Under the pieces are notes generated by a model. That model had not been told where the DNA came from. It saw only the letters and a program-made list of their open reading frames with translations, and made no database searches. This document shows positions 35,729 through 47,652 of a stretch of DNA of 64,000 nt, in pieces (position 1 is the first letter of the stretch; each line of letters starts with the position of its first letter). Position numbers and translations under genes: made by a program. Origin of the DNA: Hymenobacter sp. H14-R3 (lineage in GTDB: Bacteria; Bacteroidota; Bacteroidia; Cytophagales; Hymenobacteraceae); assembly GCF_030063445.1 (NCBI RefSeq), contig NZ_JASITD010000002.1, positions 140,334 through 204,333 on the forward strand, given 5' to 3'.

Positions 35729-36304
35729 TTGAGTATCGCCCCCGTTTCTTCCGGCCTGCTGGCGCGCCTGCGCGCCGAAACCCGCCCCTACCACGACGCC
35801 GTGGAGCAAAACGAGTTCAACCGGGCGCTGGGGGCGGGCACGCCCGGCGCGGCGGCCACCACCCGGTTTTTGGCCGATATGTACGGCTTCATGCGGCCCT
35901 ACGAAACCCAGCTACTGGCCCACGCCCCGGCCCTGGGCCCCGCCTGGGAAATACCCGGGCGCCTGCGGGCGCACCTCATTCTGGAAGACCTGCGGGTGCC
36001 CGCCCACCAGCTGCCGCTGTGCCCGGCCCTGCCGCCGCTCGCCACCCGGCCCCAGCTGCTGGGCGCCATGTACGTGCTCGAAGGCTCGACGCTGGGCGGG
36101 CAGGTGCTGGCCCGCCAGCTGGCCAAGGCGGGCCTCGACCTGGGCCGGTTTTTTACCGGCGCGGGGCCGCTTACCGGGCCGCGCTGGAAATCGTTTTGCC
36201 ACCTGCTGGCGGCCACGGCCACGCCCGGGCAGGAGGAGGCAGAGGTGGTGCAGTCGGCCATTGTCACCTTTCAAACGCTGGCCGCCTGGCTGGCCCGCCC
36301 GTGA
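35729..36304 (+). CDS. bphO: Biliverdin-producing heme oxygenase of the phytochrome operon
   Basis: A 191-residue heme oxygenase that opens heme to biliverdin, the chromophore of the next gene's product. It starts with TTG at 35729; no ATG is in frame before residue 50. The proximal heme ligand is the histidine in 'RAETRPYHDAVEQNEF'; the distal helix with glycines is 'YVLEGSTLGGQVLAR'. The stop TGA overlaps the GTG start of the phytochrome gene in the sequence GTGA, so the two are translationally coupled. Confidence 0.92.
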   Translation: MSIAPVSSGLLARLRAETRPYHDAVEQNEFNRALGAGTPGAAATTRFLADMYGFMRPYETQLLAHAPALGPAWEIPGRLRAHLILEDLRVPAHQLPLCPALPPLATRPQLLGAMYVLEGSTLGGQVLARQLAKAGLDLGRFFTGAGPLTGPRWKSFCHLLAATATPGQEEAEVVQSAIVTFQTLAAWLARP

Positions 36305-38610
36305 GCCTTCCCGACGAGCGCCTGCTTGACCAGGCCATTACCCTCACAAACTGCGACCGCGAGCCGATTCACATTCCGGGCGCCATTCAGCCCTACGGCT
36401 TCCTGCTGTGCCTCGACGAAAGCACGCGGCGCGTGGTCTACGTGAGCGACAATACCGCTGATTTGCTGGGTGTTGACCCCGCCAGCCTGCTGGGTGCGGG
36501 CCTGGGCCGGCTGCTGGCCCCCGCCCGCATGGCCGAGGTGGAGGCGTGCTTGGCCACCCTTACCGCCACGCACCAGCTGCTGGGCGTGCGCCTCGACCTG
36601 GTGGCGGGCCAGCCCTTCTACAAGCTCATCATGCACCGCCACGACCAGCTGCTGTGGCTGGAGTTTGAGCCCGTGGCGGAGAGTGGCCCCGCCACCCTCG
36701 ACCTGCCCCTGCTCAACGCGGCGCTGGGCCACATGCTGACCGCGGGCTCAGTGGCCGATTTTTGCCAGCAGGCCGTGGCCCAGGTGCGCGCCCTCACCAG
36801 CTTCGACCGGGTGGCCATCTACCGCTTTGCGCCCGACGAGAGCGGCGAGGTGGTGGCCGAGGCCACCCGCCCCGGGCTGGCCCCCTGGCTGGGGCTGCGC
36901 TACCCGGCCAGCGACATTCCGCAGCAGGCGCGGTCCATGTACTTGCTCAACTGGCTACGCTTTATCCCCGATGCCAGCTACGTGCCGGCCCGCCTGGTGG
37001 CGCTGCCAGTGGGCCGCCCCAGCCGCCCGCCCGACATGACCTACGCGGTGCTGCGCAGTGTGTCGCCCATTCATATTCAGTACCTGCACAACCTGGGCTC
37101 GGCGGCCACCATGACGCTCTCGCTCATTCAGGACGGGCAGCTGTGGGGCATGATTACCTGCCACCACCTCACGCCCTGGCTAGTGAGCTACGAGCTGCGC
37201 AAGCTGTGCCAGTTTATTGCCAAAACGTTTTCGGCCCTGCTCGGCTCCAAGCAGCAGCAAGACGCCCTGGGGTACCAGCTGCGCCTGCGCGAGCGGCAGG
37301 CGCGGCTGTTTACGCACCTCTCGCACACGCCCAACTTCGTGGAGGGCCTCTACAAGCACGCCCCTACCCTGGCCGATGTGCTGGACTGCGGCGGCGCGGC
37401 CATTTGCTTTGATGGCGAGCTGGTTATGCTGGGCAACACGCCCAGCCGCCCCCAGCTTGAGGAGCTGCTGGCCTGGCTGCAAGCCCACGCGCGGCAAGAC
37501 GTGTTTCACACCAATTCCTACGCCAGCCTCAACCCGGCGGGGCTGGCCATTCGCGGCACCGCCAGCGGCATTCTGGCGGCGGCGCTGTCGGAGGCCCCCG
37601 GCAACTACCTGCTGTGGTTTCGGCCCGAGCTGGTGCAAACCGTGACCTGGGCCGGCCAGCACGAAAAAGTGCAGCAGCTGGCCAGCGGCGAGCTGTTTAT
37701 GTCGCCCCGGCAGTCGTTTGAGGCCTGGAAGCAGCTGGTCGAGAACACGGCCCTGCCCTGGCAGCCCCTGGAGCTGGCGGCGGCCCAGGAAATCAGGCTG
37801 CACATCTCCGACGTGCGCCTCAAGGTTTTCAACGAGCTGCACGCCCGCGCCCGCGCCTTGCAGCACCTCAACACGCAGCTGGCGCGCAGCAACGAGGAGC
37901 TGGATTCGTTTGCCTACGTGGCCTCGCACGACCTCAAGGAGCCGCTGCGAGGTATTCACAACTACTCGCTTTTTTTGCTCGAAGACTATGCCGACCAGCT
38001 AGATGCCGACGGTGTGAGCAAGCTTCAAACCCTGGTGCGCCTCAGCCAGCGCATGGAAGGCCTGATTGAGGGCCTGCTCCAGCTCGCGCGCGTGGGAAGC
38101 ATCGAGCTGGTTTTCAAAGAAGTAGACATGAATGAGGTGGTGGCCGGCGTGCTCGACCTGCTGCACCCGCGCCTGGAGCAAACCCAGACCACGGTTGCGG
38201 TGCCGGGCCCCTTGCCCACGGTGCTGGGCGAGTACGTGTGGCTACAGGAAATAGTGAGTAACCTGCTCACCAACAGCATAAAGTATAGCGAGCAGCCCGC
38301 CAAGGCCGTCACCATTGGCGTAGTGGGCAGCGGCGTGGTGGTGCCGGGCGGCCCGGCCAATTCAGCCGATTTTCATATTTTTTACGTACGCGATTATGGT
38401 ATCGGGATTGCCCCCCGGCACCACGAAAAGATATTCAAGCTATTTAAGCGCCTCCATGCCCAGGAAAAGTATGGCGGCGGCACCGGGGCTGGCCTCGCCA
38501 TTGCCAAAAAAATGGTGGAGAAGCAGGGCGGCAGCCTGTGGGTTGCGTCCGAGCTAGGCCAGGGAGCTACCTTCTACTTTTCCCTGCCCAGGCAGCTACC
38601 CGTTTTATAA
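36301..38610 (+). CDS. bphP: Bacteriophytochrome histidine kinase
   Basis: A 769-residue red/far-red photoreceptor. It starts with GTG at 36301 and has the PAS-GAF-PHY-HisKA-HATPase layout. The biliverdin-binding Cys18 lies in 'LTNCDREPIHIPGAIQPYG'; the GAF signature 'RYPASDIPQQAR' contains the chromophore-contacting Asp. The PHY tongue region is about 330-440 ('CGGAAICFDGELV'). The phosphoacceptor His543 is in 'YVASHDLKEPLRG' and the ATP-binding part has 'NSIKYS', 'DYGIGIAPRHHEKIF' and 'GGTGAGLAIAKKM'. The likely phosphate acceptor is the receiver protein encoded 17 bases downstream. Confidence 0.96.
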   Translation: MSLPDERLLDQAITLTNCDREPIHIPGAIQPYGFLLCLDESTRRVVYVSDNTADLLGVDPASLLGAGLGRLLAPARMAEVEACLATLTATHQLLGVRLDLVAGQPFYKLIMHRHDQLLWLEFEPVAESGPATLDLPLLNAALGHMLTAGSVADFCQQAVAQVRALTSFDRVAIYRFAPDESGEVVAEATRPGLAPWLGLRYPASDIPQQARSMYLLNWLRFIPDASYVPARLVALPVGRPSRPPDMTYAVLRSVSPIHIQYLHNLGSAATMTLSLIQDGQLWGMITCHHLTPWLVSYELRKLCQFIAKTFSALLGSKQQQDALGYQLRLRERQARLFTHLSHTPNFVEGLYKHAPTLADVLDCGGAAICFDGELVMLGNTPSRPQLEELLAWLQAHARQDVFHTNSYASLNPAGLAIRGTASGILAAALSEAPGNYLLWFRPELVQTVTWAGQHEKVQQLASGELFMSPRQSFEAWKQLVENTALPWQPLELAAAQEIRLHISDVRLKVFNELHARARALQHLNTQLARSNEELDSFAYVASHDLKEPLRGIHNYSLFLLEDYADQLDADGVSKLQTLVRLSQRMEGLIEGLLQLARVGSIELVFKEVDMNEVVAGVLDLLHPRLEQTQTTVAVPGPLPTVLGEYVWLQEIVSNLLTNSIKYSEQPAKAVTIGVVGSGVVVPGGPANSADFHIFYVRDYGIGIAPRHHEKIFKLFKRLHAQEKYGGGTGAGLAIAKKMVEKQGGSLWVASELGQGATFYFSLPRQLPVL

Positions 38611-38626
38611 TTAAGTTGATTACGCC

Positions 38627-39073
38627 TTGATTATCAGTTCATTAAAACCCATTTTAGTAGTTGAGGACAGTGACGAGGACTTCACCGCCCTGGGGCGCGC
38701 CTTCCGCAAGCATGCCCTCCAAAACCCCGTGCTGCGCTGCGAAGACGGCGACCAGGCCCTCACCTACCTCAAGGGCTATGGCAAGGCGGTGGGCTGGCCG
38801 GCCACGCTGCCCGCCTTGGTGCTGCTCGACCTCAACCTGCCGGGCACCGACGGGCGGGCCGTGCTCGAAAGCCTCAAGCGCGACCCGCAGCTGCACACCA
38901 TTCCGGTTATTATTTTCAGCACCTCCTCCAGCTCGCGCGATATCGAGGACTGTTACCGCCTGGGGGCCAACAGCTACCTTACCAAGCCGCTTGAGTACAG
39001 CGCACTGGAGGAAAAAATCCGGCTCACTATCAATTACTGGCTCGGAGCCTCGGAGCTGCCGGGGTTGAACTGA
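38627..39073 (+). CDS. Stand-alone response regulator, Rcp1-like
   Basis: A 148-residue single receiver domain with TTG start at 38627. Acidic pocket 'VVEDSDED', phosphoacceptor Asp68 in 'LLDLNLPGTDG', the switch residues 'IFSTSSSS' and Lys120 in 'LTKPLEY'. The length and the long loop 'YLKGYGKAVGW' are typical of phytochrome-associated Rcp1 proteins, which have no DNA-binding domain. It is in the same operon as bphOP. Confidence 0.93.
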   Translation: MIISSLKPILVVEDSDEDFTALGRAFRKHALQNPVLRCEDGDQALTYLKGYGKAVGWPATLPALVLLDLNLPGTDGRAVLESLKRDPQLHTIPVIIFSTSSSSRDIEDCYRLGANSYLTKPLEYSALEEKIRLTINYWLGASELPGLN

Positions 39074-39097
39074 GGAGCTAACTTCTGCGCGTGTAAA

Positions 39098-40315
39098 GTG
39101 AAGAAAATTCTTCTTGTTGATGACAATGCGCAAGACCGGCATCTTTACCGGCGCTACCTAGGCAAGCAGCTGGGCCACGAGCGGGTGGAAATTACCGAGG
39201 CTTCCTCGGGGCAGGAGGCGATGGCCTTGTTTGCGAGCGAGCAGCCCGATTGCGTGCTGCTCGACTACAACCTGCCCGACGTAGACGGCCTCGATTTGCT
39301 GGCCCAGCTCAAACAGCTGGCCCCGCCCGAGGGCCTGTGCGTGGTGATGATAACGGGCGGTGGCAACGAGCAGTTGGCCGTGCAGGCCCTGGGTATGGGC
39401 GCACTCGACTACCTGGTGAAGCAGCAGTTCGACCCCGAACTGCTGGCCAAAACGGTGGTGCACGCCATCGAGAAAAACGAGTGGCGGCAGTACCAGGCCA
39501 ACTACCACCACGAGCTGCAAGCCATGAACCAGCAGCTGCGCGACTCGCTGGAAATGGTGGAGGAAACCCGCCGTGCCCTCAACGCCAAAAACGCGCAGCT
39601 CACCACCGCCAACAAGCTGCTGGCCCGCACCAATGCCGACCTCGACAACTTCGTGTACGCGGCCAGCCACGACCTCAAGCAGCCGGTGAACAACCTGCGC
39701 GGGCTGTTTGACGAGCTGCGCGCCACCGCCACCTTTGCGGACCCGCTCGCCCCCAAAATGTGGAGCCTGGCCGATGACTCGCTGCGCGTGCTGGCCACTA
39801 CCATTACCGACCTGGCCAGCGTGGTGCAGGAAGAGCGCCAGCCCGCCGCCGAGCCTATCGAGCAAGTAGCGCTGGCCGCTATAGTGGCCGAAATCGCCCA
39901 GTCGCTGCATGTGCAAATACTTGATAGCAAAGCCGTTATAATAAGCTGCTTCGAGGCCCTGCCCGTGCTAAGCTATTCGCCGCGCAACCTGCGCACCATC
40001 CTGCTCAACCTGCTGGCCAACGCCCTCAAGTACCGCCACCCCGGCCGCGCCCCGCAGGTGCGCCTGCGCACCTGGCTGGCCGCCGGCCACCCCGTGCTAG
40101 AGGTGCAGGACAATGGCCTCGGCATCGACCTGGAGCGCCACCAGGGCGAGCTGTTTCAGCTGTTTCGCCGCTTCCACCCCGATGCCGCGTCGGGCACGGG
40201 CGTAGGCCTGTTCCTGGTCAACCGGCTGGTGCAGGCACAGGGCGGCCACATCGAGGTGGCCAGCCAGCCAGGCGAGGGCACCACGTTTAGCGTTTATTTA
40301 CAAAGCGCTGATTAA
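39098..40315 (+). CDS. REC-HisKA-HATPase hybrid signalling protein
   Basis: A 405-residue protein with GTG start at 39098. An N-terminal receiver domain (1-125; Asp56 in 'LLDYNLPDVDG', 'MITGGGNE', Lys108) is joined by a coiled segment (about 130-180) to a histidine kinase with His191 in 'YAASHDLKQPVNNLRG' and ATP-binding motifs 'NALKYR', 'DNGLGIDLERH' and 'GTGVGLFLVNRLV'. It may receive phosphate from the phytochrome or send the signal on to another partner. It ends the four-gene light operon; IS630-type DNA follows 13 bases later. Confidence 0.93.
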   Translation: MKKILLVDDNAQDRHLYRRYLGKQLGHERVEITEASSGQEAMALFASEQPDCVLLDYNLPDVDGLDLLAQLKQLAPPEGLCVVMITGGGNEQLAVQALGMGALDYLVKQQFDPELLAKTVVHAIEKNEWRQYQANYHHELQAMNQQLRDSLEMVEETRRALNAKNAQLTTANKLLARTNADLDNFVYAASHDLKQPVNNLRGLFDELRATATFADPLAPKMWSLADDSLRVLATTITDLASVVQEERQPAAEPIEQVALAAIVAEIAQSLHVQILDSKAVIISCFEALPVLSYSPRNLRTILLNLLANALKYRHPGRAPQVRLRTWLAAGHPVLEVQDNGLGIDLERHQGELFQLFRRFHPDAASGTGVGLFLVNRLVQAQGGHIEVASQPGEGTTFSVYLQSAD

Positions 40316-40330
40316 TATATTTTTATATTA

Positions 40331-41439
40331 TACTCGTCACGAAGCGGGTTGCGCGTCGAGAATATGAAAATTGCGGGTGAGCAGGGACGCGAGTTCAGGC
40401 CCAAACTCGTCGAGCCGGGTGAAAAAGTCGAGCACGGCCATCCTGAACGCGCCTTTGGTGCGATAGAAAGCCGTGTTGATGATTTTTTGGCGCAGGAATT
40501 TCCAGAAGCGCTCTATCAGATTCAGATTAGGCGAATAGGGGGGCAGGAAAACCTGTACCAGGCGGGAGTCGACCAGCCAAGTAGTAAGGGCCTTATTTTT
40601 GTAGTAGCGGGCGTTGTCGCAGACGACATAGACCGGGCCTTGGGGGTGGGCTTCGAGCAGCTGCTCGTACAGCCGACGCGTGCTTTGAGCATTCACGCAG
40701 TCGGTTTCATCGAGGTAGAGCTCGGTAGCGACCACCGCATTCAGGGCCGCATTGAGATTGACGCGTTCGCGGCCGCTGACCGTGAGCAGGGGCCGTTCTT
40801 TGCCCGTCTCAGTCCAGACGTGGGTGGCGCGGGTGTTGTGGGTGGGGTGAGCGGCATCGGCAAAATACACCGCCGCCGTGCCTGCTTCGGCCTGAGCCAG
40901 CAACGGCCGTAAGGTGTCGGCCAGAAATGCGTGCTGCCGGGCTGCGTCCGCCTCGCAGGGCACCGCAGTGGTCAATTTATAGGAGAAGCCCAGGCGGTGC
41001 AGCAGGTCCGTCAGACCCGAAACGGAATACTGCACCTGGCAGGTCAGCGCCAGCCAGTCCGCGATTTGCCGACAATCGGTGTAGAGGTGGCGGCCCAGCT
41101 CCTGACACAGGTGCGCCAGCTGGGCGCTGGTCAGCAGGCCCCAGTAGCCCCCGGCCTGCGTGTCGGGTTTGCGGAAAGCGGCCAATCCCTGGGCCTGGTA
41201 GGCCCTGGTGTAGCGGTAGACCGTGGCCACGGACACGCCTAAATCATCGGCGATACTGGCGACCGAACGACCCTTGTCCAGCAGCAGCACCACGGTCACC
41301 GCCACATAGTCCGCTCGCTCGCCACACCGCCCTTGCAGGGTGCGTAGCGCTTGGCGCTCAGCAGGGCTTAGGCTTAATTCCATGACGCAAGTTTAGGACT
41401 TTTTACGCACTGTTTTCGCAACTCACTTCGCGACGAGTA
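40331..41439. mobile_element. IS630-family insertion sequence, intact
   Basis: Element bounded by 25-base terminal inverted repeats (40329-40353 and 41417-41441; TATACTCGTC-CGAAG-G-GTTGCG with three mismatches) and flanked by TA, the target duplicated by this family. The only gene is the 348-codon transposase on the minus strand, whose stop lies inside the left repeat. It sits directly behind the light operon. Confidence 0.9.
40337..41383 (-). CDS. IS630-family transposase
   Basis: A 348-residue DDE enzyme. The N-terminal helix-turn-helix pair ('RSVASIADDLGVSVATVYRY' and a second winged helix about 70-130) recognises the repeats. The catalytic triad is in 'VYFADAAHPT' (Asp), 'VVCDNARYY' (Asp) and 'YSPNLNLIERFWKFLRQ' (Glu), as in DDE_3. 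The frame is uninterrupted and the start codon ATG at 41383 lies near the right repeat, so the element may be active. Confidence 0.95.
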   Translation of the reverse strand: MELSLSPAERQALRTLQGRCGERADYVAVTVVLLLDKGRSVASIADDLGVSVATVYRYTRAYQAQGLAAFRKPDTQAGGYWGLLTSAQLAHLCQELGRHLYTDCRQIADWLALTCQVQYSVSGLTDLLHRLGFSYKLTTAVPCEADAARQHAFLADTLRPLLAQAEAGTAAVYFADAAHPTHNTRATHVWTETGKERPLLTVSGRERVNLNAALNAVVATELYLDETDCVNAQSTRRLYEQLLEAHPQGPVYVVCDNARYYKNKALTTWLVDSRLVQVFLPPYSPNLNLIERFWKFLRQKIINTAFYRTKGAFRMAVLDFFTRLDEFGPELASLLTRNFHILDAQPAS

Positions 41440-41635: not shown

Positions 41636-42907
41636 CTACGAAAATGGGCCGTAGCTCAGCAGCACGTAGAGGTGCCAGCCGGCGGCCCCAGCCAGCACCG
41701 CCGGCCGCGCGTAGCGGGCCGGCCAATGCGGCAGCAGGCCCGCCAGTAGGCACAGCACCAGTGGCAACAGCGTGTAGGCCAGCCGCTCGGGGTAGTAGCC
41801 CAGCAGGGCAAAAAACACCACGAAGCACCCAAAAACCCAGCTCAGCGCCGGCCCGGTACCGGCAGGTAGCACTGGCTGGCTACGGGGCCGCAGCCGCCAC
41901 CAGGTAGCGCCCAGCAGGCCCAGCCCGGCCAGCAGCCACCACCTCATAACGGCCAGGCTGGCCGCGTAGGCCGCCAGCTTGGCTGCCACCACCTGCGTGA
42001 ACTCGGGCCAGGGCAGCGGCCAGGCCTCGGGCAGCCACACCAGCTGGTGAAAGCGCGCGGCCTCGTGGTTGTAGTAGGTGGTGCCCTGGGTGCGCAGCAA
42101 GGCAATCCATAGCAAGGTGGGCAGACCGAAGAGCAGGCCGCTCAGCAGCAGGCGGGTAGCTACCAGCCGCCAGCGCCGCCCGCCCGCCGGTGCCAGCCGG
42201 GCCGCCCGCACCACGCCGTAAGCCAGTGCAGGCCAGGCCAATACGAAGCTGCCATACACCAGTGGCAGCAGCCCCAGCGCGCAGGCCAGGCCCGCCAGCT
42301 GGCCGCCGCGCAGCCAGCCCCGCCCCACCCGCAGCGCCAGCGCCAGGCAAAAGAGCGGCACCAGAAAGGCGAACATCTGCTGGTGGGCCGTCCAGAAAAA
42401 AGCCTTCGTGATGGGATTGGCTACCAGCACCCACGCCAGGGCGTAGAATTGCCAGGCCGCCCCCCGGCCGGCCGTCAGCACCCTGCACAAATGCCTGAGC
42501 AGCAGCATACCAGCCAGCAAGGCCAGGCCATTGAGCAGCACAAAGCCGGCGTAGTAGCCGGCAATGCGCGGGTCTTCGGGGTAAAAAGGCAGCACCAGGC
42601 CGTGCCGACCGGCCAGGCGCAACGCGGCCGTGAGCGGGTAGCCCACGGCCGCGCCCAGCAGGGCATAAAGCGGGCGCGACTGCCGCACCTCCTGCGGCAG
42701 CAGCAGCCGGCGCGGCTCTTGGGCCACCAGCATGTAGCCGTGGCTGTCGTGGTTGACCACAAATCCCAGGCCGGGAGCCAGGTGCACGTATTCGCCCCAG
42801 TACTCGACGTCGGGCTGGCCCCGCGGGGCCGGCGACAGCCAGAACGACAGGCACGCCGCCAGCAGCAGGGCTACCAGCGGGGCCACGCCAGCGAGGTACC
42901 TAGGCAA
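41636..42907 (-). CDS. Polytopic membrane protein, glycosyltransferase-like
   Basis: About 423 residues if started from the TTG at 42907, which overlaps the YiaA/B stop by eight bases; an ATG at 42970 would instead overlap that gene by 71 bases. At least nine hydrophobic segments are visible, with a large first loop '[25 protein letters not shown]'. This is how GT-C or O-antigen-polymerase-like membrane enzymes begin, with an Asp-Ser-His loop. It lacks the Cys/Arg/His triad of exosortases. No certain family. It may be co-transcribed with YiaA/B. Confidence 0.65.
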
Positions 42908-43337
42908 GCGGCTCCTCGCGGTTGGGGCGGGCCAGGCCTTGCGTGTCGCGGGTGTTTTTTTGCACCGCAATGGCTGCGAATAAGCTCAGCAAGAAGGACA
43001 TAGCGTAGAAGCCTTTCTCGCTGGCCGTGAGCGTGGCGTTCCAGAGGCCCACGGCCAGCAGGCTAATGGCCAGCACCGTCGAAAACCAGCTCAAGCCATA
43101 GTAGATGTTGGTGACGTTGATGCCGTCCTGGCGGTCGCGCACGCTTTTTTGCACCGACACGGCCGAAAACAGCCCGTACATGAGCACCGTGAAGTAGTAG
43201 CCCTTTTCGTTGAGCACCATCTGGGCGTTCCAGAGGCCAATGTTGTAGGCCGCCATGCCGGCTAGCAGTGCCACCCAAGAGGCGATAATAAAAGCGGCGG
43301 AAGGCCCCTGGGGCGCGGTGCGAGCAGATGGATTCAT
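42900..43337 (-). CDS. YiaA/YiaB-family inner membrane protein
   Basis: A 145-residue protein from the ATG at 43337. It consists of two repeats of a two-helix unit: '[24 protein letters not shown]'...'[29 protein letters not shown]' and '[21 protein letters not shown]'...'[28 protein letters not shown]'. This is the YiaAB two-helix domain, doubled. Function unknown in the family; a -7 box lies 22 bases upstream. Confidence 0.93.
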
Positions 43338-43389: not shown

Positions 43390-46278
43390 CTACCCCGCCA
43401 GCCGGGGCCGGCGCAGCCACCAGCTACCCAGCCCGACGCCCAGCAGCAGCAGCCACGGCGCATAGTCGTCGAGGGGCACGGCGGTGGCGGTGCTGGGCGG
43501 CGCGGCCTCCTGGGTATCGAGGCTGGCGTTGGCGGCCAGCGTTTGGGCCTGCTTGCGGTAGAGCGCCTGCTTCTGGGCCTGGTTTTCGAGGGCCAGGAAG
43601 GCGGTGAGCGGCGTGAGCAGGCGGCTGCGAAAGCTGGCCTGAATGAAGGCCAGGTGCTGGGCATCGGCGGCGGCGGGGTGCAGCGCCTGCCACTGGGCGT
43701 AGCCGCGCAGCAGCAGCCCGGTTTGCCAGCGCGAGGCCGCGGCGGTGGGCACGGCCAGCGCGGCGGCCGGCTGGCTCAGCACCACGCTGGCGCGGCCGTC
43801 GTTGGGCAGGTACGCGCGGGGCTGCGCGGCCGTAGGCCAGGCCCGCACGCCTGGTTTTGCTTCGGCCTGATTAACAGCATTTTGCACTACCTCGCCCGAA
43901 GCGGCGCGCAGCGAATGCCCGGTAACCTGGCCCTGTGCTTCCAGTATTTTGCCCTCTCCCAGCACCAGAAACGTATCGCCCTCGGGGTAGGCCGCCGCCA
44001 AATCGGCAAAATCGGGGTCGAGCACGGTGCCGGTCAGCGAATCGGTGACCACCACCAGCACCGGGTAGCTGGCGGCGGGGTGCAGTTGGGCCTCGGCCAG
44101 CGTGCGGCGCACGGCCCCGGTGAGGTAGCAGCCGCCCGCATTGGCAAAGCCGTCGAGCTGCTGCCGCCAGTCGGCCCCGGCCGGCACGGGCGTAGCGTAG
44201 GTATTCACGAGCGTGAAGCGGGCCGGCGCAGCGCTCGGGTACTGCGCCATAAAAGTGGTAACCCACTGCTTATAAGCCTCTTTTCGAACCTGCGCCGCCG
44301 CCGACACATCAAGCAGAAAGTGGTAGTAGGGCCGGCGCTGCACCAGCGGTAGCTGCTGCTTGGCCGCCGCGCTCAGGTACACCACCGCCCCGCCGGGCGT
44401 GGCCACTGGCGCGGGGGTGGGGGCCACCAAACCGGGGCGGCCCAGTTGCACCGTTTGCCCGTCAATCAGTAAACTAACGGGCTCTTTGTGCGTGAGTTGC
44501 ACCCCCGTGCGGCGGGGGGTATTTTCCACCACCGGGTACACCTGGAGGCGCAGTTGGTCGGGGCCGGCGTAGGCGAGCAGGCCGGGGTCGCGGCGGTCGT
44601 TTTGGTGCACTATCTGGGTGTAGACCCAGTCGGCGGCTTTCTTTTCGGCCAGAATGCCCGGCTCGCGGCGGCCGTCGATGTCGAGGTAATAATCGCTCAC
44701 CCAGCAGCCGGCCGGCAGCGCAAACGTGGTGCGGTACTCGCCGGCTGGCTGCGCCGGGTTGGGGTTGCCCACCTCCACATCGACCCAGCTCACCCAGGCC
44801 TGCTGGCGGGCATCGTAGGTGCTGCGGGCCGTGAGGTGCCGTAGCGCGGCCGGCGCGGGCGCGGCGGCAGTAGCGGTAAACATGCCTGAATTCCAGGCAT
44901 CTACCCGCGTATCGCCCAGGCCGAACACGCTTTCCAGCGTAGTGAGCTTGCTTTCCGAGAGTAGCAGGTTGTCCAGCACCAGCCAGTTGAAATACGTGGA
45001 GAGAAACGGCTGCTGGCTGCCCATAAACAGGTCGCGGCCGTGGTCTTTGTGCTGGCGCACGGTGGCCAGGGTGCGGGCCAGGGTCGCGGCGTCGAGGTCG
45101 TAGGATTTGGTATAATCGGGGGTGTACACGTAGGCCAGCGCCGCGTGCAGCGTGCGGCGGGCGTGGTAGTAGTCGGCGGTGAGCAGCAGCGGCAGCACGG
45201 TAGCCCCGCCCACCAGCACGGCGCGCGGCACCCAGCGCGCAAAGTGGGGCCGCACGGCCACCACATCCTCGGCCAGCAGGCGCACGTGCACCACCAGCAG
45301 CACCAGCGGCGCAAGCATCAGAAAGCCCGTGCCAATGGCGATAACGGCCAGCAGCGACAGCGGCAAAAACGGTAGAAACACCAGAAAAAAGTAGCACGTG
45401 TAGCCCAGCAACACGCTGCGCGCCCCCAGCAGCGCCAGCCGCCCGGCCGGCCGCGCCGGGGCCGGCAGGCACAGCAGCACCCCGTTGAGCACCGCCAGCC
45501 CGTAGAACCACGGCGTGTTGAAATTACCAAAAATGCCGCTCTGCTTGCCCACGCCCCCCAGCAGCATGCCCGTGTTCACGAGCAAGCCTAACAGAGGTAA
45601 TACTAAGGTAATGAGTACTTTCCAGATAATGGTAAACTCATCGTCGCGGCGCAGACTGAAGAGATAGGCGGCCCGCACCAGAAAAAACAGGAACGTGAGG
45701 GGCCCCACCACCAGCCCGGCCAGCAGCAGCGGCCCATCCAGCCAGGAGCCGTTGACCCAGCTACCCAAAAGCGTGCTCAGCAACCCCAGCACCAGCCACC
45801 CACCCACGGGAATGGCCACCGCCAGCCCCAGGCTGGGCAGCACCGATTGGGGCCGGGCGGCGGGCACGCTGCGCACCACCAGCACCAGCAGGGCATGGGC
45901 CAGGGTGGGCATGAGGAAGGTCCAGACGTAGACGAGCAAATCGGTGGGCACCATCCAGCGCGGAATATCGCGCGGCAGCACCACCTCGCTGCTGCTGGTG
46001 TACCAGGCCAGGTACGCCACGTAGGCCACCAGCGCGGCCCCCGCGTAGCGGCTGCTCAGCGGCAGCCCGCGCCGCCACTGCCAGGCCGCATGCAGCAGCG
46101 TGGCCCCACCCAGGGCCGCCAGCCCCAGCGCTAGCTGCTGCCACACGGCCACACTGGCGGCCGGCAGCAGCGTTTCAATCACCGAAAACTCGCCGTAGCC
46201 TAGCGCCGCCAGCAGCAGCAGCGGCAGGGTATTGAGCAGCAATAGCCATTTGGCATTGAGCAGGTTGTGCATAAGCAA
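43390..46278 (-). CDS. VIT-domain membrane protein with exosortase-type C-terminal signal (XrtN/MSEP-CTERM-like)
   Basis: A 962-residue protein. Residues 1-385 hold about ten membrane helices. Then comes a VIT (inter-alpha-trypsin inhibitor) domain, recognised by '[22 protein letters not shown]', '[20 protein letters not shown]' and '[20 protein letters not shown]' (about 510-600). A VWA-like region follows ('[13 protein letters not shown]'). The tail '[15 protein letters not shown]' then 'RRPR' has the motif-helix-basic plan of exosortase substrates. The closest families I know are the XrtN system VIT proteins and the MSEP-CTERM proteins of Bacteroidota. No exosortase gene is found in the window. 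Confidence 0.72.
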
Positions 46279-46509: not shown

Positions 46510-47652
46510 ATGCTCTCCGAACCTACCTACCTGGCCGCCCGCATGGTGGCCCCCGCCCTCGAAGCTCACTTTGCCCAGCACCGCACCGACGCCGCGCAAC
46601 TAGGCGGCCCGCCCCTGCCCCCACCCCCGCCGGCGGCGCTGCTCGAAGCCATCATCGACGTGGCGTTTTGGGCCAGCCTGCGGCGCGAGGAGGGCCGCCC
46701 GCCCCGCATTTCGCTGGCGCTGCTGGAGCCCGAGGCGGCCGGGCAGCCGCTGCTGTTTGGGCACCGGCTGCGCCTCACACCGCAGGTACTCATCAAGTTA
46801 GCGCCGGCCGTGGAGCATCCCGGCATTCACCTGGGGGTGAGCTTCGACGCGGAGGGTCTCTACATCTGGGGCACGGCCAGCCAGGTGCCGCCGGTGTGCT
46901 TTGTGCTGGAAGTGGTGGAGCCGGGCCTGCTGGTGGCCAAGCACCGCCGGGCCGATGGCTTTGGCAAGTTCATCAACGTGGCCGTGCTGCGGGGCGACCA
47001 GATAAGGGTGGTGGACGAGGATACCATGGGCCTGGCCGACTACCCCACACTGCGCGAGTCGCTGCCCGCCATTCCGTGCCCGGCCACCGCGCCCGGCGGC
47101 CGGTCGGTAGATGTGCTGCTGGAGCTGGCCCGCGCCATGCGCGCCCACGGCCGCGGCGGCCTGCTGCTGTTGCTGCCACCCGGCTCGGAGGCGTGGCGGG
47201 CCTCGGTGGTGCAGCCGCTGGGCTACCCCGTGGTGCCGGCCTTCGCGGGCATCGCCGACCTGCTCACCGGCGCCGACCGCAGCCACCGCGACTGGCAGGA
47301 GAACCTGCTGGATGCCATTGAGATAGTGGGTGGCTATACCGCCGTAGACGGGGCCACCGTGCTCACCCGCGACTACAAGCTGCTGGCCTTTGGGGCCAAA
47401 GTAACCCGCCGCACCGACGGCACCTCAGTAGAGGAAATCGTGCTCACCGAGCCCGTGGTGGGCAGCAGCGCCACCACCCTGCACCCCGCCAAAAACGGCG
47501 GCACCCGCCACCTGGCCGCCGCCCAGTTTGTGCACGACCAGCACGACGCGGTGTCGCTGGTAGCCTCGCAGGACGGCAATTTCACGGTCTTCTCGTGGTC
47601 GGAAGCGCTGGGCCGGGTGCACGCCCACCGCATCGACGTGCTGCTGCTGTGA
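46510..47652 (+). CDS. DACNV-like sensor plus DAC-like nucleotide-binding protein
   Basis: A 380-residue protein from the ATG at 46510. The N-terminal 200 residues resemble the predicted sensor domain DACNV of Bacteroidota. The C-terminal part has the landmarks of diadenylate cyclase (DAC/DisA_N) domains: 'TAVDGATVLT' (DGA at 280-282) and 'GGTRHLAAAQ' (331-339), followed by 'HDAVSLVASQDGNFTVF'. In active cyclases the second motif is R-H-R; here it is R-H-L, so catalysis by this protein is doubtful and ligand binding is possible. It is convergent with the next gene and divergent from the VIT protein. Confidence 0.72.
   Translation: MLSEPTYLAARMVAPALEAHFAQHRTDAAQLGGPPLPPPPPAALLEAIIDVAFWASLRREEGRPPRISLALLEPEAAGQPLLFGHRLRLTPQVLIKLAPAVEHPGIHLGVSFDAEGLYIWGTASQVPPVCFVLEVVEPGLLVAKHRRADGFGKFINVAVLRGDQIRVVDEDTMGLADYPTLRESLPAIPCPATAPGGRSVDVLLELARAMRAHGRGGLLLLLPPGSEAWRASVVQPLGYPVVPAFAGIADLLTGADRSHRDWQENLLDAIEIVGGYTAVDGATVLTRDYKLLAFGAKVTRRTDGTSVEEIVLTEPVVGSSATTLHPAKNGGTRHLAAAQFVHDQHDAVSLVASQDGNFTVFSWSEALGRVHAHRIDVLLL

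Follow-up and report, generated by a model that had tools for sequence, protein, structure and literature searches.

The 64,000-nucleotide stretch of Hymenobacter sp. H14-R3 DNA analysed here (the window; host genome 5.26 Mb) encodes a real, conserved variant among the DACNV-DAC and diadenylate cyclase (DAC) proteins, in which the GxRHR motif has become GTRHL (Table 1). We read this DACNV-DAC protein from its sequence as an ATP-using cyclase that makes c-di-AMP or a near relative; this is the best single reading, and we give it a probability of about 0.45. It would be a signalling protein, apparently soluble, whose C-terminal DAC domain would bind ATP and a divalent metal and would still condense nucleotides, the product being c-di-AMP or a dinucleotide close to it, with the N-terminal domain in control. 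Catalysis, the product and the role of the N-terminal domain are points that we infer with uncertainty. Beyond the original prediction for this DNA, the leucine proved to be clade-wide, SQDG was found where (V/I)SEE is expected, and the 'sensor' domain is DAC-like in its modelled structure.

Table 1. Features of the DACNV-DAC gene, its product and neighbouring genes in the window.
Feature	Position	Strand	Details
DACNV-DAC protein gene, GTRHL clade	46510..47652	+	open reading frame, ATG start, 380 aa
DACNV domain (PF21751)	46618..46878	+	aa 37-123, Pfam E 3.4e-32, 111 bits
Complete N-terminal domain	46531..47013	+	about aa 8-168, alpha/beta, DAC-like model without the RHR-bearing helix
EEG motif of DACNV	46687..46695	+	aa 60-62
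C-terminal DAC-fold domain	47107..47649	+	about aa 200-380, AF2 model
DGA motif	47347..47355	+	aa 280-282
GTRHL motif replacing GxRHR	47500..47514	+	aa 331-335; Leu codon 47512-47514
SQDG motif where (V/I)SEE is expected	47566..47577	+	aa 353-356
MSEP-CTERM sorting-domain protein	43390-46278	-	TIGR04286, 695 bits; upstream, divergent from the DACNV-DAC gene
444-aa ORF	41636-42970	-	upstream in L033, L037, L039, L041; downstream in L043
DDE_3 transposase with winged-helix domains	40337-41383	-	adjoins phytochrome genes

Relatives were found by scanning genome contigs with search patterns that excluded residue 335, and 80 of the 107 found were kept, at 45–87% identity. By record label they come from Hymenobacter, Mucilaginibacter, Chitinophaga, Pedobacter, Dyadobacter, Pontibacter and further genera, plus one Acidobacteria and one Longimicrobium record; the closest (L033, L034, L035 and L037) are Hymenobacter records at 84–87% identity. 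Across these 80 and the window protein, D280 and G281 were each present in 81/81 and A282 in 80/81 (one protein has DGD), G331, R333 and H334 in 81/81 each, T332 in 80/81, and S353, D355 and G356 in 81/81 each. The motif around D355 was SQDG in 75 of the 81 proteins, SVDG in four and SMDG in two, and EEG was kept in 79/81, with E60 and E61 invariant among 61 aligned proteins. The original prediction had described DGA and G-T-R-H motifs with Leu in third place; both are there (residues 280-282 and 331-335), and residue 335 is Leu in 79/81 proteins and Phe in 2/81.

Pairwise dN/dS between the window gene and nine near orthologues was 0.17–0.32, and 50 columns were invariant in the alignment of 61 proteins. 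The gene is real, conserved and under purifying selection. That it is decaying, or an artefact of sequencing, is highly improbable: the split of orthologue L032 across two frames and the DGD of orthologue L039 would suit such a view, but the dN/dS values and the invariant columns contradict it. For L032 itself, both an assembly error and a real loss are possible. The canonical DAC gene of genome G005, whose match lies in two pieces, one with an internal stop, could likewise reflect an error or a real loss. L105, labelled Bifidobacterium breve, has an orthologue at 52% identity and is probably a mis-binned MAG; the rest of its family belongs to Bacteroidota and Acidobacteria.

The DACNV match, at 111 bits, passes the Pfam gathering score of 27 bits, and the DAC family PF02457 scored 17.2 bits (E 0.0039, residues 322-359), under its gathering score of 27 bits. 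An NCBIfam search with the window protein gave no family at E up to 1, NF053872 (DS2_3_antiphage) included. In an AF2 model of the full-length protein (61-sequence alignment, pLDDT 88.5, pTM 0.83), the C-terminal domain clearly has a DAC fold despite the sub-threshold PF02457 score. This part matched DisA 9y9y and 9y4s with Z 14.8 and rmsd 2.2 Å over 131-132 residues, and CdaA with Z 10.4-11.9. Among the 996 chains compared with the full-length model, 72 had Z of at least 8; the 40 entries listed above Z 10 were all DACs, and the next best row had Z 3.2. The predicted presence of a DAC-like domain beside DACNV is borne out by the PF21751 score and by the fold match to DisA. It had also been proposed that homologues with this Leu and no DAC structural match would speak against the assignment; compared with DisA and CdaA, the Leu-bearing protein does match DACs in the model, so that objection fails.

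Sequence profiles agree weakly with the DAC fold. The C-domain aligned by hhalign to 68 canonical DACs (PF02457 matches containing HDGA, from genomes of few phyla) with E 3.5e-4 and a probability of 37%, over 22 columns in the GTRHxAA-to-S region. Its profile scored 14.8 against canonical DACs, compared with 7.9 ± 1.3 and a maximum of 13.5 for 60 shuffles (z 5.2). With 13 CdaA sequences, a first hhalign run on the C-domain had given no match (E 0.51). Searching PDB sequences with the window protein returned no DAC and one chance match (E 1, a formate dehydrogenase-type subunit), and the same search with the family profile returned zero matches.

In L. monocytogenes CdaA with ATP, the phosphates are contacted by Gly101, Thr102, Arg103, His104, Ser122 and Glu123, the Mg by Glu124, the ribose by Asp71 and the adenine by Leu31 and Leu88; the third Arg of RHR is absent from this contact list (PMC7288161, section 2.3). 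Passages of PMC6368335 on S. aureus DacA are concordant for the Asp, Gly and Thr contacts. We mapped the CdaA contact residues to the window family by sequence alignment. Asp71 corresponds to D280, Gly101 to G331, Arg103 to R333, His104 to H334 and Ser122 to S353 (each kept in 81/81), Thr102 to T332 (80/81), and the Mg-binding Glu124 to D355, which is Asp in 81/81. All of the listed polar ATP and metal contacts of CdaA are kept in the family, in 80-81 of 81 proteins each; Glu123 makes its contact through the main chain, so the Gln in its place need not matter. The GALI motif reads GGLL in the window protein, and its adenine-facing Leu position holds L in 43, I in 19, T in 8, S in 6 and A in 3 of the 81 proteins.

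The third residue had been described as triphosphate-binding, a description that the CdaA-ATP contact list, where the third Arg is missing, does not support. Because this Arg is not a listed ATP ligand, its loss need not abolish binding. Passages of PMC3328451 report that MtbDisA with RHR changed to AAA made no c-di-AMP and no longer shifted with ATP, and a passage of PMC4568413 that the same block mutant of CdaS produced no c-di-AMP. As described in those passages, the mutants changed all three residues jointly, and thus do not isolate the role of the third Arg. On the aligned sequences, the C-terminal domain likely binds ATP.

Counting against a cyclase are the basic third residue of all 68 canonical DACs, the RHR-to-AAA mutants, the canonical DAC that most carrier genomes already own, the empty PDB searches and first hhalign run, the replacement of SEE by SQD, the GALI Leu found in only 43/81 proteins, and the PF02457 score under the cut-off. 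It is possible, if rather improbable, that the protein is a pseudo-cyclase receptor for ATP or c-di-AMP, its pocket kept for binding and its signal passed on via the N-terminal domain or a partner. Such a receptor would fit the absence of a residue that all 68 canonical DACs have as Arg or Lys, the change of SEE to SQD, and the presence of a canonical DAC in 45/47 carrier genomes of a first set and 12/12 of a second, though 76/79 relatives have one anyway. However, none of the 81 proteins lacks D280 or the acidic D355 of the metal site, residues that a protein acting purely as a receptor could more easily give up, and a conserved partner gene is absent within flanks of up to 4 kb, where the commonest neighbour family occurs at 10/80 loci. 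The 47-carrier set consists of those of the 80 loci without a Hymenobacter label and outside the 12-genome set. Beside the 76/79 relatives, a canonical DAC match was found in 36/61 genomes of a phylum sample and in 52/60 of a sample of the phylum of G370, the genome that carries L110 and is labelled Acidobacteria; such co-occurrence carries no information. Since carriers mostly own a canonical DAC, the supply of c-di-AMP does not need a protein of the window type.

A DAC-fold enzyme for some other nucleotide or acceptor, making for example a mixed dinucleotide or carrying out adenylylation, is unlikely. The spread of the GALI Leu position over L, I, T, S and A (79/81) and a DGA-to-RH loop that is longer than that of CdaA in the alignment would be consistent with it, yet Leu31 is a single contact, canonical DACs also show Ile there (5 of the 36, among the 68, in which the motif was found by pattern), and nothing points to such an enzyme directly.

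Of the 68 canonical DACs, 66 have Arg and two have Lys as the third residue of RHR; this residue, basic in 68/68, matters for something. The 47 non-Arg proteins fell together in one group of a 62-row tree, with an SH-aLRT support of 99, and in this group residue 335 is L in 35 rows, F in six, V in two, and M, I, S and Q in one each. Outside this group the sole other non-Arg row has a Cys, and Arg is carried by 14 rows, L169 (GTRHR) included. L169, L170 (Ser) and L171 (Gln) were flagged as long branches of unsure placement; with L170 and L171 removed, the remaining 45-row group still had a support of 99. The tree was built in 'quick' mode with SH-aLRT and a midpoint root, and it included 25 of the 80 loci. 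L164 (from genome G370, represented by L110), the fragments L172 and L175, and L176 were omitted, and L111 was truncated at a run of X, with the column of residue 335 kept in the alignment. Because the non-Arg proteins form one clade, the Leu is old and fixed and is no mutation of the H14-R3 strain. We infer, again with uncertainty, that Arg is the ancestral state at this position, taking it as older because it is found in canonical DACs and in the other DACNV-DAC proteins. The third Arg would have disappeared in the common ancestor of a clade that today spans Bacteroidota and, judging from record labels, Acidobacteria and Longimicrobium, and a hydrophobic residue would afterwards have occupied its place in nearly all clade members.

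In Pfam, PF21751 is described as 'Probable sensor domain DACNV' and is accompanied by a C-terminal DAC; the domain is present in the window protein. The name DACNV was not found in the open-licence papers searched. DACNV occurs in 34/79 relatives, 8/296 genomes of the phylum, 18/247 genomes of the phylum of G370 and 0/14 control genomes. The other DACNV-DAC proteins of relatives share SQDG with the window protein: one kind (eight proteins) has DGA and GTRHRAAYR, and a second (four proteins) has DGL or DGV with GTRHR, once GTRHC. The window clade differs from them in its hydrophobic third residue and in a C-domain that falls under the DAC cut-off. With CdaA and DacA the window protein shares the DAC fold and the Asp, Gly, Thr, Arg, His, Ser and acidic metal residues, whereas RHL replaces RHR and SQDG replaces SEE, at 15-22% identity over aligned residues; in passages of PMC8573169 CdaA has a membrane part, while the window protein has DACNV in front. 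DisA, its best structural match, differs in having RHR for RHL, at 15-19% identity. The DAC match extends to residue 377-380 of 380, and with the DAC domain at the C-terminus no HhH domain follows, unlike in DisA.

PF02457 matched two other proteins of the same genome: one is encoded by a canonical CdaA-like gene, and the other has a sister architecture, DACNG-DACNH-DAC. The latter (L123:5141-6691, contig C11), and not the window protein, matched NF053872 DS2_3_antiphage, a DACNG-DACNH-DAC family, with 435 bits against a cut-off of 630; it has DGA, and GARYNS instead of GxRHRxA. A second DACNV-DAC paralogue in the genome, recognised by PF21751 (L120:523-1866, minus strand, contig C3), has DGL, GTRHR and SQDG. 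A short ORF adjoining this paralogue resembles a RelE/HigB-type toxin by eye.

The N-terminal domain was also modelled alone (AF2, residues 1-188, 48-sequence alignment, pLDDT 85.1) and compared with the 1000 chains top-ranked by Foldseek among 350,542. Z of at least 2 was obtained for 64 of 997 chains, belonging to 36 entries, all of them DACs; the best match was CdaS 2fb5 (Z 7.4, rmsd 3.4, 115 residues), in a tool where Z below 8 can reflect a common arrangement. As all 64 matches were DACs and the library held at least 72 DAC-like chains, this outcome is far above chance. The modelled elements are a helix (42-56), strands 67-71 and 81-88, a helix (91-101) and strands 107-113, 116-123, 132-137, 140-146 and 154-161, an order that we read as that of a DAC without the RHR-bearing helix. 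From the models, the DACNV 'sensor' domain is somewhat more probably DAC-derived than of other origin. Foldseek with the N-domain alone found nothing under E 0.001 (best CdaM, E 0.091), and the full-length fold search gave only weak unrelated rows for this domain (fructose-bisphosphatase, Z 3.2). Against canonical DACs, hhalign gave no support (E 0.2 over nine columns) and the N-domain profile scored below shuffles (z -0.8); against the C-domain it gave z -1.5. All 48 aligned N-domains matched DACNV in Pfam, and at E up to 10 they gave zero DAC matches and one weak DACNH match (E 0.22). By eye, residues 80-125 resemble the CdaA region around HDGA, in an alignment that failed to score.

A tandem of a pseudo-DAC and a DAC, with DACNV packed head-to-head on the C-terminal DAC of its own chain, is a doubtful extension of this idea. 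DACNV would be a degenerate DAC without the RHR helix and, judged by eye, without the catalytic Asp, and the site would be built from an active and an inactive half, an arrangement known from heterodimeric class III adenylyl cyclases. On this view the third Arg would be missing because the partner half has ceased to carry a second ATP, and the reaction might use a different acceptor or yield something other than c-di-AMP. Among the matches listed from open-licence papers from 2023 on, there was no 'tandem DAC', 'pseudo-DAC', 'degenerate DAC' or 'PF21751'; 'two DAC domains' was used once, in PMC10167629.

Downstream of the gene in the window, on the minus strand, are a CDP-alcohol phosphatidyltransferase and MutS2. 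Among the 80 loci (flanks up to 4 kb), the MSEP-CTERM neighbour recurred at two, MutS2 at six and the phosphatidyltransferase at none. In L035, L036 and L043 the genes directly upstream, on the same strand, encode a phytochrome histidine kinase together with a response regulator and a receiver-kinase, and the same genes, or the part of them within the locus, lie upstream with intervening genes in L033, L034, L037 and the window (36019-40315). L048 has another phytochrome and regulator upstream of its DACNV-DAC gene. With a phytochrome set at 7/80 loci and in the window, a link of the gene to light signalling is a lead and not a rule. For the 444-aa ORF, Pfam (at E 0.001) and NCBIfam (at E 0.01) returned nothing. 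A defence system was considered and rejected: PADLOC, searched with E up to 1, gave no match to the window protein, and a conserved neighbour was absent. Phage and plasmid collections gave zero matches to the DACNV-DAC protein at E 1e-5.

Enzymes of c-di-AMP are recognised by DGA and RHR. A clade in which the polar ATP contacts are kept and the third RHR place is hydrophobic offers a direct test of the purpose of that arginine. With PF02457 under its threshold and NCBIfam silent, a census of nucleotide-signalling genes can overlook proteins of this type. Should the 'sensor' turn out to be a dead DAC, the family would consist of tandem cyclases, and the origin of at least one 'DACN' sensor domain would be explained.
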